A stretch of DNA of 36,973 nucleotides, from positions 1 to 36,973 of the forward strand of contig JAGFWA010000003.1 in the NCBI GenBank assembly GCA_017640245.1. The letters run 5' to 3'. The notes beneath the pieces are model-generated. The model was not told the DNA's origin, searched no databases, and worked only from the letters and a program-made list of their open reading frames with translations. Source of the DNA: Pelagibacteraceae bacterium. Lineage in GTDB: Bacteria > Pseudomonadota > Alphaproteobacteria > Pelagibacterales > Pelagibacteraceae. How positions within the stretch are numbered: the first letter of the stretch is position 1; each line of letters begins with the position of its first letter. Position numbers and translations under genes: made by a program. Shown here piece by piece: positions 13,284 to 32,036 of this stretch.

Positions 13284-13433
13284 GATAGCGTAACGGGAGA
13301 GACCATTTTTTGGCGCCGAAGGAGCAACCCCCCGGAAACTCTCAGGCAAAAGGACCGTTACCGTAATAACTCTGGAAAGCAGGCGTTAGCCTCACCGAAG
13401 GGGTAAATCTCTCAGGTAATCCGACAGAGGGGG
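13284..13433 (+). ncRNA. Tandem glycine riboswitch upstream of gcvT
   Basis: Two glycine aptamers lie in series. Aptamer 1 is closed by GTAACGG (13290-13296) with CCGTTAC (13355-13361) and contains GGGAGAG, GCGCCGAAGGAGCAA and CTCTCAGGCAAAAGGAC, the conserved glycine-aptamer core. Aptamer 2 is closed by CTCTG (13370-13374) with CAGAG (13425-13429) and contains CACCGAAGGGGTAAA and CTCTCAGGTAA. The linker is about 8 bases. Only about 17 bases separate aptamer 2 from the gcvT ATG and no terminator hairpin fits there, so control is probably of ribosome access (SD-like GAAGAG at 13439-13444). Glycine riboswitches upstream of gcvT in SAR11 are established. Confidence 0.95.
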
Positions 13434-13449
13434 ACAATGAAGAGTTATT

Positions 13450-14544
13450 ATGCAAACACAAAAAACAATTTTATATAATTTTCATAAAAATTTAGGAGCA
13501 AAGTTTGTTCCTTTTGCAGGTTATGAAATGCCAATTCAATATAAGGATGGCATTGTCAAAGAACATATTAGCACAAGAGAATCTGCCGGTTTTTTTGATG
13601 TTTCACATATGGGGCAATTATTTTTATCTGGAGACAAAGCATTGGAAAACAGTTTAGAAAAAATTATTCCTTTGGATTTGAAAGAAATTAAATTAAATCA
13701 ATCAAAATATTCCTTTTTAATAAATAATAAGGGCGGTGTTATTGACGATCTTATTATCACTAGAACAGAAAAGGGATTTAATATTATTTTGAATGCCGCC
13801 TGCAAGGAGAACGATATCAAAGAAATAGTAAAGTGTTTAAAGCCAGAGCATAAATATGATTTAAAGAACGATCTTTCACTTATTGCTATTCAAGGACCAA
13901 AATCAGAATCAATTCTAGAATCAATTGTTTGCGGCGTAAATAAACTTAAATTTATGAACGGAAATCATTTTCAATTTGAAAATAAAAGAATTTATATAAC
14001 CCGTTCAGGATATACGGGTGAAGACGGGTTTGAAGTTTCAATTACAAATTCAAAAGCAGAAAGTTTCACAAAACTTTTAGTGGAAAAAGGAGTTAAGCCA
14101 ATCGGCCTTGGAGCCAGAGACACTTTAAGATTAGAAGCCGGACTTTGCTTATATGGACACGACCTTAATGAAAATATCAATCCCATCCAAGCAAATTTAA
14201 AATGGGCCATTTCAAAAAGGAGAAGAGAAGAAGGAGGATTTAATGGTTGGGAAAATATAAGAGAAGATTTGAAGAATGGCGCATCTAAAATTCGAGTTGG
14301 TATAAAACCGTTAGGACGAATCATAGCTAGGGAAGGGACTAAAATATTTTCATCAAATGGTGAAGAGATAGGAGTTATTACTAGCGGGACTTTTGGGCCA
14401 AGCGTTAACAGCTCTGTTGCAATGGGTTATGTTAAAAGCGAATTTTCTAAGATTAATAACAAGATCCTCTTAGGGGTTAGAGGAAAAAAACACGATGCAG
14501 CAGTTTCAGAACTGCCGTTTTATAAAAAAAGTTATGTTAAATGA
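13450..14544 (+). CDS. gcvT: Glycine cleavage system T protein (aminomethyltransferase)
   Basis: A 364-residue cytosolic T protein, normal length. It transfers the aminomethyl group on lipoyl-GcvH to tetrahydrofolate, giving 5,10-methylene-THF and ammonia. The start with FVPFAGYEMPIQY, then SAGFFDVSHMGQ, the RSGYTGEDGFEV block and LGARDTLRLEAGLCLYGHDL are the family landmarks, including the folate-site aspartate region. It is the first gene after the tandem glycine riboswitch. The stop is 12 bases before gcvH. Confidence 0.96.
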   Translation: MQTQKTILYNFHKNLGAKFVPFAGYEMPIQYKDGIVKEHISTRESAGFFDVSHMGQLFLSGDKALENSLEKIIPLDLKEIKLNQSKYSFLINNKGGVIDDLIITRTEKGFNIILNAACKENDIKEIVKCLKPEHKYDLKNDLSLIAIQGPKSESILESIVCGVNKLKFMNGNHFQFENKRIYITRSGYTGEDGFEVSITNSKAESFTKLLVEKGVKPIGLGARDTLRLEAGLCLYGHDLNENINPIQANLKWAISKRRREEGGFNGWENIREDLKNGASKIRVGIKPLGRIIAREGTKIFSSNGEEIGVITSGTFGPSVNSSVAMGYVKSEFSKINNKILLGVRGKKHDAAVSELPFYKKSYVK

Positions 14545-29865: not shown

Positions 29866-31011
29866 ATGATTAACTCACTAGGTATAAAAAAATTACCTAA
29901 AGACACAAAAGTAGTCGTGGCTATGTCAGGTGGAGTCGATTCGTCCGTTGTTGCAGGCTTAATGAAAGAGCAAGGATATAATGTAACTGGAATAACGCTT
30001 AAATTATACGATGATGCCAAATCCCCGAACAATGGAAGGCAGTGCTGTGCTGGACAAGATATTGTTGATGCTAAAAGAGTGTGTGAACAATTAAATATTC
30101 AACATAGAATTTTATACTACCAAAAAAAATTTAAAGCAGAAGTAATAGACTCTTTTATTGATAGCTATGTAGCTGGAGAGACACCTATACCCTGTGTTCA
30201 ATGTAATCAAACGGTTAAGTTTAGAGATTTATTTCAATTTTCGAAAGAAATGAAGGCAGATGCTTTGGTAACAGGTCATTATGTACTAAGGCGCGAAGAT
30301 AATGGCAAAGGTTCAATGTATCGCGCAGAAGATAAAGATCGGGATCAAAGTTATTTTTTGTTTGGTACAACGCAAGAGCAACTAGATTATTTAAGATTTC
30401 CACTCGGATCAATCAGCAAGTCTGAGACTAGAAATATAGCGGAAAAACTTAATCTTAATGTGGCTACAAAACCAGACAGTCAAGATATTTGTTTTGTTCC
30501 TAATGGGGATTATAGTTCTGTAATAAAAAGATATAGACCAGAATCTTTTAAAAGTGGCGATATCTTTGATTTAAAAGGAAAAAAATTGGGTTCCCATGAT
30601 GGAATTATAAACTATACGATTGGGCAAAGAAGAGGCATTAAGATTTCAAATCAGGAACCACTTTATGTTGTTGATATAAAAACTAAAGAGAATTCTATTA
30701 TTGTAGGTCCGCAGGAATATTTAAATATAAAAAAATTATATTTAAGAAATATGAATTTTCTATCTGATAAAAAAATATTTGATAAAGAAATTTTTATTAA
30801 AGTAAGATCTACTGGAAGATTGCTTAAAGCCAAATCCATAATTAAAACAGACTCAGCAATAATTGAAATCTTACAAGATGAAAAAGGTATATCTCCAGGA
30901 CAAGCTTGTGTGTTTTATTATAAAGATAATTTTGGAGAAAGAGTTCTTGGAGGAGGCTGGATTGATAAAACCGTAAATAAAAATTTATCCACACAACTAA
31001 CAGAGCATTAA
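29866..31011 (+). CDS. mnmA: tRNA-specific 2-thiouridylase
   Basis: A 381-residue enzyme that thiolates U34 of tRNA(Lys/Glu/Gln) using a persulfide relay and ATP. The PP-loop motif MSGGVDSSV is at residues 20-28; the nucleophilic Cys113 is in [11 protein letters not shown] and the second catalytic Cys209 in DSQDICFV. The C-terminal beta-barrel part with YTIGQRRGI is present. It is divergent from the DUF3553/cysQ unit. The structured RNA at 31061 begins about 50 bases after its stop. Confidence 0.97.
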
Positions 31012-31048
31012 AAAAACAACCAAAAAGTGATAGTTATTTTTTATCCCG

Positions 31049-31054
31049 TATGAT
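31049..31054 (+). promoter_or_regulatory. -10 element of the structured RNA downstream of mnmA
   Basis: TATGAT lies about 7 bases before the predicted RNA start at 31061. A weak -35 candidate, GTGATA, stands 16 bases upstream. No terminator separates it from mnmA, so read-through from mnmA is also possible. Confidence 0.4.
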
Positions 31055-31060
31055 TTAATA

Positions 31061-31247
31061 GATACTAATTGAGAGGCAACTCTTAACTGGCCAGTTGGGG
31101 AAAGGCCGAGAGGTTTAAGCTCAACGGGCAGAAAACGGGGGACAGCAGTACTAAACATTCCTCGTGGCGAGACGAAGGTAGTACTTCAACAGCGTCTCAA
31201 ACTTGAAGGTTCGGTCACGAAAGTGACTGGATCTTTTGGTTTTTTTA
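31061..31247 (+). ncRNA. Structured RNA of unknown class with own terminator
   Basis: A GC-richer island in very AT-rich DNA, without an open frame of use. It shows hairpin TTGAGAG-GCAA-CTCTTAA (31069-31086); a long arm closed by AGTACTA/TAGTACT (31147-31153 with 31179-31185), with an inner TTCCTCG...CGAG..GAA stem; TTGAGA (31069-31074) could alternatively pair with TCTCAA (31195-31200); and a 13-bp terminator hairpin with a GAAA loop. The size, about 187 nt, fits a stable housekeeping RNA. I looked for tmRNA, SRP, RNase P and tRNA signatures and found none; a divergent 6S RNA is possible but unsupported. Confidence 0.6.
31206..31246 (+). terminator. Intrinsic terminator of the structured RNA
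   Basis: A 13-bp stem (31206-31218 with 31223-31235, three G-T pairs) is capped by a GAAA tetraloop, followed by TTTTGGTTTTTTT. It is the clearest plus-strand terminator in the window and fixes the 3' end of the RNA near 31247. Confidence 0.85.
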
Positions 31248-31289
31248 GGGCTACCCATTCAACCCTTATATCTTTTATCTTTACTAAAC

Positions 31290-32036
31290 TCACTTAATAA
31301 TGGCAAAAAAATCAAAGGTCGATGTAGTAGCAAGGGTTTTAGTTTTTTTCCAAAGAGAAAAGTTAGCACGTAGAAGACAGCACTCCAACAAAATAATTCC
31401 ATTCAAGCGCATGTTTAAAATGCACGTTGCCGATGTTGTTATTATAGGCACACTTGCAATAGCGACCATTGTTAAGATACTAACTAAAATTATTTTAAGT
31501 ATTAAAACGTGACCATTAATATCTCGATATATTATTTTTTTTAATTTGAAGAGTCTGTAAACCAAGATAGATTGGGCAACAACTTCAAAAATAATAAAAG
31601 CTAATAAAATAAATCTTCTAAAAAATTTATACAGATCATAATCAAATTTTATACCTAAAAATATAGTGTGCATTATGAGAAATACTGCAGACAGTATTCC
31701 AAAAGTTTTAAAAATATTATTTTCATTCTCTCTATTTAGGTAAAGATTTACAATTTTATTTGTTTTTGCCCAATAAACCATAAGTAAAACCGAAGTAACA
31801 ATCATGCCTGGTTTAAATATCAAATATGTAGGATATGTTCTAGAAACTCTACTTATGGAAACTCCGCCATCGATATAAGGTAACGTAAAAGCCGAACGAC
31901 CAATCTGATCAACGCTTAAAAATGTGTTTTCGAAAATGTGAAAATTAACAGAGATGAATAAACATAAATTTATAGAAATAAAAGGAATAAGAAATATCCA
32001 CAAACTCAATTTTTTAATCTGAGTTCTTAACTCCAT
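31290..32036 (-). CDS. Frag1/DRAM/Sfk1-like integral membrane protein
   Basis: A 248-residue membrane protein. Five clear helices are visible (about residues 11-30, 76-94, 108-128, 139-162, 180-203), with a periplasmic loop PYIDGGVSISRVSRTYPTY that resembles the Frag1/DRAM/Sfk1 family. A sixth, weaker helix (IILLECCLLRANF) keeps the glutamate and asparagine seven residues apart as in my recollection of that family. The distal 200 bases carry an open frame on the other strand, so the true C-terminus is less sure. The function of bacterial members is unknown. It follows the basic 27-residue gene by 11 bases. Confidence 0.7.
   Translation of the reverse strand: MELRTQIKKLSLWIFLIPFISINLCLFISVNFHIFENTFLSVDQIGRSAFTLPYIDGGVSISRVSRTYPTYLIFKPGMIVTSVLLMVYWAKTNKIVNLYLNRENENNIFKTFGILSAVFLIMHTIFLGIKFDYDLYKFFRRFILLAFIIFEVVAQSILVYRLFKLKKIIYRDINGHVLILKIILVSILTMVAIASVPIITTSATCILNMRLNGIILLECCLLRANFSLWKKTKTLATTSTFDFFAIIK

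Follow-up and report, generated by a model that had tools for sequence, protein, structure and literature searches.

Identity of the element

The element at positions 31,061-31,247 of the window (the whole stretch of Pelagibacteraceae DNA analyzed, 36,973 nucleotides long) is, with near certainty, an IMES-2 RNA gene, a member of a structured RNA family of SAR11 bacteria. A cmscan search of the window against Rfam 15 gave two matches above threshold, a glycine riboswitch and IMES-2 (RF02035), the latter at 31,062-31,200 on the forward strand with 121.3 bits (E 6.2e-31; gathering score 54.7 bits) and covering the full model, positions 1-141. A permissive search of positions 30,990-31,320 returned no other credible family besides IMES-2. 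The earlier note on this DNA, made from the letters alone, had described a structured, separately transcribed SAR11 RNA of an undescribed or unassigned class. The first part of that description was upheld; the second was not, since a match to the full RF02035 model makes the element neither unassigned nor undescribed, and the claim of novelty fails now that the covariance-model search has returned a significant known family. The element is a real member of an already catalogued marine-bacterial RNA family and not a new RNA class. That tmRNA, SRP RNA, RNase P RNA and tRNA had been discounted proved correct: no such model matched at E values up to 10 in 30,990-31,320, ARAGORN found neither tRNA nor tmRNA, and the RNase P RNA of this genome was found elsewhere (C41:4300-4651).

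The description of IMES-2 reportedly dates from 2009 and drew on marine metagenomes and metatranscriptomes; the RNA is said to be abundant in ocean RNA. The Rfam entry RF02035 gives no function, and full-text literature searches found no open paper about IMES-2. SAR11 bacteria rank with the most abundant ocean cells, and in IMES-2 they have a structured RNA without a known job; the host range, the full gene limits, the tertiary contact and natural strain pairs with and without the gene (G040 and G003, respectively) provide a handle on its function. The window sequence shares with IMES-2 the four stems, the conserved loops and the SAR11 host. The RF02035 consensus leaves the loops of stems P3 and P4 unpaired and stops before the terminator, whereas the description given here adds a kissing contact, a promoter element and a terminator (Table 1). 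The additions comprise strong evidence for the loop-loop contact and a map of presence and absence in SAR11 genomes.

Table 1. Positions of mnmA, the IMES-2 RNA and its predicted parts in the window.
Feature	Positions	Strand	Remarks
mnmA (tRNA 2-thiouridylase)	29866-31011	+	Pfam PF03054, PF20259, PF20258; context, not part of the RNA
Conserved upstream element CAACCAAAAAGTGATA	31017-31032	+	Holds the -35-like hexamer GTGATA (31027-31032)
-10-like hexamer TATGAT	31049-31054	+	16-base spacing; start predicted near 31061
IMES-2 RNA core	31062-31200	+	RF02035, full model 1-141
P1 hairpin, 7 bp, invariant GCAA tetraloop	31069-31086	+	100% of cells paired; 3 pairs with double-sided changes (76 sequences)
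P2 long arm, 11 bp in three segments, A-rich internal loop	31087-31131	+	9 pairs with double-sided changes in two helices
P3 hairpin, 8 bp (31135-31142/31158-31165), 15-nt loop	31135-31165	+	8 of 8 pairs covary; 95.6% of cells paired
Kissing contact, P3 loop AGTACTA (31147-31153) with P4 loop TAGTACT (31179-31185)	31147-31185	+	Predicted from covariation
P4 hairpin (31169-31174/31193-31198), encloses the second loop	31169-31198	+	99.5% of cells paired; 3 pairs covary
Terminator hairpin, GAAA loop, then U tract (31240-31246)	31199-31247	+	Equivalent hairpin in relatives

Four-stem fold

The predicted stems P1, P2, P3 and P4 are all strongly backed by compensatory changes. In an alignment of 76 distinct relatives (A2), 94.8% of cells are paired when nested stems and loop contact are taken together, 26 pairs show double-sided changes against 16.9 in shuffles, and pairing collapses to 32-41% when the partners are slid. 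A second alignment (A4), to which the named genomes and a divergent genus (g2) were added and which was fitted to the nested stems and not to the loop contact, contained 33 pairs with double-sided changes against 20.0 in shuffles. All four stems of the IMES-2 consensus form in the window. The internal loop of P2 reads GAAA/TAAG in the window and GAAA/CAAG in most relatives, and the upper helix of this arm (31,104-31,107/31,112-31,115) is capped by a GAGA tetraloop. P4 of the window contains purine mismatches and one further pair, 31,177-31,190. Judged from the covariation, the RNA would fold as four covarying stems followed by a terminator hairpin.

The GCAA-capped hairpin that the earlier note had pointed out is P1, conserved and paired in every sequence with three covarying pairs. 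A competing long-range pairing of TTGAGA with TCTCAA, also proposed there, fared differently: all six pairs form only in the window, and two or three form in 66 of the 76 sequences. A switch built on it was rejected, as the pairing is not conserved, and the proposed 5' end with two conformations falls with it.

Kissing contact between the P3 and P4 loops

The P3 and P4 loops each carry six to seven complementary nucleotides, and the pairs that these would form change in concert among GC, UA, CG and AU in several lineages, giving contact cores GCGC, GUAC, GCAC/GUGC and UCGC/GCGA. The commonest loop alleles are GCGCUA/UAGCGC. The alleles AGUACUA/UAGUACU occur in the window and at loci L034, L044, L113 and L153; AGCACU/AGUGCU at L033 and, in another genus, at L039 and L040; and UCGCU/AGCGA (AUCGCU/AGCGAG) at L046, L139 and L163. 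In a group with AUCGCU/AGCGCA the contact is shortened to four or five pairs. In alignment A4, 18 cells of the contact had double-sided changes against 2.1 in shuffles, and none of 500 shuffles reached the observed value; the covariation score of the contact and its fraction of paired cells were likewise reached by 0 of 500 shuffles, and slid versions were lower. The count of contact pairs with double-sided changes, a weak measure alone, was 3 against 1.6, with 53 of 500 shuffles reaching 3.

When the single sequence is folded to minimum energy (-68.1 kcal/mol), the contact comes out as a nested helix. At -65.1 kcal/mol, before any kissing-pair energy is counted, the comparative nested fold of the window is close to that value. 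The complementarity between 31,147-31,153 and 31,179-31,185 is better explained by two hairpin loops that kiss. Spotting this 7-bp helix was a valuable contribution of the earlier note, and its complementarity and covariation held, with compensatory changes across SAR11 relatives in the 31,147-31,185 arm; its interpretation as the closure of a long arm did not hold, a loop-loop contact between covarying hairpins being the better fit. The pattern of covariation suggests that the P3 and P4 loops would kiss to form a compact 3' domain.

Palindromic loops (AGCGCU, AGUACU) might instead pair between two copies of the RNA, and the loops are indeed self-complementary in most alleles, including that of the window. 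We consider such homotypic dimerization improbable, however, because AGCACU/AGUGCU (L033, L039 and L040) and AUCGCU/AGCGAG (L046, L139 and L163) keep the complementarity between P3 and P4 and lose self-complementarity. That neither AGCACU nor AUCGCU can pair with itself favors pairing of the P3 loop with the P4 loop over dimers in which a loop meets its own copy; a domain-swapped dimer is possible.

Gene limits

A conserved motif precedes the RNA in all compared loci. The sequence AGTGAT (AGCGAT in two loci of genus g2) lies 33-36 bases before the RNA in 111 of 111 loci from three genomic contexts, usually embedded in a longer motif resembling CAACnAnnAAGTGATA. Some 16 bases further on comes a -10-like hexamer, where relatives have TATGAT, TGATAAT or a TGTTAAT-like sequence. 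The promoter-like pair of the window, GTGATA-16-TATGAT (31,027-31,054), was by itself no better than chance in a promoter scan. Among 12 genomes the upstream motif had zero to two matches per genome, and its AGTGATA versions were at IMES-2 except for one elsewhere in G001; this rarity and location indicate an element of the IMES-2 gene and not a general SAR11 promoter. Downstream of the core, a further hairpin was present in 111 of 111 loci, with a mean energy of -21.4 kcal/mol compared to -7.8 kcal/mol in shuffles, and a run of at least four U followed it in 92 of 111 loci, the window having seven. Since the promoter element and the terminator recur across the compared loci, we infer a gene about 187 nt long that has a promoter of its own and an intrinsic terminator, the extent of the transcript being predicted; the promoter would drive an IMES-2 RNA of this length that ends at the terminator.

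The 187-nt stretch is 47% GC compared to 31.7% for the window, a level reached by 0.5% of 187-nt windows, mostly at the glycine riboswitch near 13,284 and at IMES-2 itself. It folds at -68.1 kcal/mol against -46.7 ± 3.9 kcal/mol for dinucleotide shuffles (z = -5.5). Of the features named in the earlier note, the GC-richer island and the terminator with its GAAA loop are borne out; the predicted promoter is supported by the fixed distance of the upstream motif in all relatives and not by the hexamers of the window.

Distribution and alleles

RF02035 was detected in 140 of the 297 genomes searched from the window's order, always as a single copy above the cut-off, and these genomes represent four of 11 genera. 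Among 385 genomes drawn from the class, a match occurred only in the genome of the window and in two further members of its family, and IMES-2 was absent from the sampled alphaproteobacteria outside that family. A 29-base IMES-2 pattern occurred in at least 120 GTDB genome records, and all 80 matches listed belonged to Pelagibacteraceae, Pelagibacterales or Pelagibacter. A phage-borne RNA was rejected given these host assignments and the lack of a match to the pattern in IMG/VR. No convincing divergent copy was detected with a model built here in 38 genomes without an RF02035 match, and because this model also misses the divergent G001 copy detected by the Rfam model, some of these negatives may still carry a very divergent copy.

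Presence of IMES-2 requires six changes on a tree of MnmA, of which at least four are forced by well-supported branches, and close relatives on this tree differ (G003 lacks the gene and G040 has it). A recombinase tree showed no clustering of IMES-2 presence. Both trees are of single genes and the clade recombines, so gains and losses are not firmly countable. The half of the window's IMES-2 comprising P3, P4 and the terminator, with its AGUACU loops, is near those of L044 and L153 and differs from the IMES-2 of most of its genus; its 5' half is genus-like. By inspection, this combination suggests that 3' domains may have been exchanged between lineages. A copy at L140 (268-396) has an intact 5' half and, within the P3 loop, ceases to follow the family sequence; it is either a broken copy or an assembly join.

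Genomic context

The same cassette was found in three unrelated contexts. In the window's genus and the related genus g6, the only ones in which mnmA is the upstream neighbor, IMES-2 lies about 50 bases behind mnmA and is followed, with few exceptions, by a gene on the opposite strand. The g3 loci place it between an ogt-like gene and a tyrosine recombinase, past which there are glycosyltransferase-like genes (names assigned by inspection of the sequences and not by family search), and in g2 its neighbors are again unrelated genes. The recombinase and ogt are still near each other in g3 genomes without IMES-2, and in several of these the end of a small open reading frame (ORF) is no more than about 10 bases from ogt, leaving a clean empty site. 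The recombinase was rejected as a partner by co-occurrence, given its presence near ogt without the RNA.

The contexts also bear on the reading of IMES-2 as an mnmA 3' element with a role in regulation or processing, or as a two-conformation switch. Its position behind mnmA in the window's genus and g6 would fit such a role, as would the TTGAGA/TCTCAA pairing that can form in the window alone. Other genera, however, have IMES-2 beside unrelated genes, a promoter element stands between mnmA and the RNA, and the pairing is not conserved. The comparison of contexts speaks against this reading, which is already largely refuted and to which we assign only a very slight probability; a leader or 3' element of mnmA was rejected on genomic context. 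One cassette in three unrelated settings, together with many relatives that lack it, argues for a trans-acting, accessory RNA, the accessory function following from its absence in close relatives. IMES-2 would thus act in trans and not as a cis-regulator of mnmA.

Several ORFs were noticed around these loci. A short basic ORF on the opposite strand, beginning MSYPKKHRGRRK..., is conserved behind mnmA in many SAR11 genomes without IMES-2 at that place (G005, G009, G011, G013 and others). Two ORFs overlap on opposite strands behind the RNA of the window. The protein of 31,290-32,036 (reverse strand) is the conserved one, with 63-70% identity in genus mates and no Pfam match, and the ORF at 31,300-31,512 (forward strand) is probably spurious.

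Possible mode of action

The overall best explanation is an IMES-2 gene with its own transcript, a kissing-loop fold, action in trans and protein binding, and we judge the chances that this combination is right to be about even. No obvious substitute for IMES-2 was noted in hosts without it, which counts against this explanation. The folded RNA would bind and modulate a protein or protein complex rather than pair with mRNAs, a mechanism that we favor tentatively, with a probability somewhat short of one half. RNAs such as 6S and those of the CsrB type can in principle bind and modulate a protein. Under the favored mechanism, IMES-2 would resemble protein-sponge RNAs of the CsrB/RsmZ type in working by folding and protein binding; by inspection its hairpin loops lack GGA motifs, and its fold is a single compact unit and not a repeated motif.

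The principal competitor is an antisense sRNA acting in trans, whose loop sequences would pair with mRNAs. The promoter, the U-rich terminator, the intergenic position and contexts indicative of action in trans would suit such an RNA, and the GUAGCGC loop sequences are strongly conserved. The P3 and P4 loop bases covary with each other, however, which explains their conservation. Once the stems and the loop contact are assigned, conserved bases stay unpaired only in two GNRA-type tetraloops, the A-rich internal loop and short linkers, in runs of at most 4 nt (GCAA, GAAA and GAGA). Formation of the kissing contact leaves no conserved free seed of at least 5 nt; the two loops would offer one, and their bases could pair with targets, if the contact opens. 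Hfq (PF17209) was detected in none of 20 SAR11 genomes, where a very divergent form might escape the Pfam model, and was found in control genomes including E. coli and Caulobacter. ProQ (PF04352) was detected in none of 12 SAR11 genomes in a search that found it, among the controls, in E. coli only. The short unpaired runs and the lack of detectable Hfq or ProQ favor a protein-binding RNA over an antisense RNA, which we regard as unlikely but worth keeping in view.

A divergent 6S RNA had been among the identities suggested by the earlier note, and neither sequence nor architecture backs it. The 6S model (RF00013) had no match at E values up to 10 in 30,990-31,320. IMES-2 and 6S RNA are alike in a length near 187 nt, a single copy, and an own promoter and terminator; 6S RNA is a long rod with a closing stem and a large central bubble, whereas IMES-2 comprises four serial covarying hairpins with a kissing contact, and a divergent 6S RNA was rejected on model score and architecture. 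A separate proposal is that IMES-2 does the job of 6S RNA, sequestration of RNA polymerase, with an unrelated fold. Its similar length is consistent with this, as is the failure to detect 6S RNA in any of 30 SAR11 genomes by a search that finds the 6S RNA of Caulobacter, RNase P RNA having been found in 12 of 12 SAR11 genomes searched. Against it stand the missing 6S match even at an E value of 10, the serial hairpins in place of one rod with a central bubble, and the many SAR11 genomes without both 6S RNA and IMES-2. Functional replacement is thus a minority reading with a low probability. An extension in which the compact kissing-loop RNA would be a lineage-specific global regulator of SAR11 with a 6S-like role, gained, lost and allelically exchanged among strains, seems to us equally improbable; if true, IMES-2 would fill that role in bacteria that seem to have lost 6S RNA, Hfq and ProQ.

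Other RNAs noticed

The second Rfam match in the window, a glycine riboswitch aptamer (RF00504, 66.4 bits), lies at 13,284-13,367 on the forward strand, ahead of an ORF of 364 amino acids that starts at 13,450. In g3 genomes, a conserved intergenic stretch around GAGCAATGCAGTTATAGAATAT...CCATAGAGGTGC...ACAACTGAAGGGTGCA was seen behind the ogt-like gene, shortly before position 1500 of loci L272, L275, L277, L282, L284 and L287, and may be another structured RNA.
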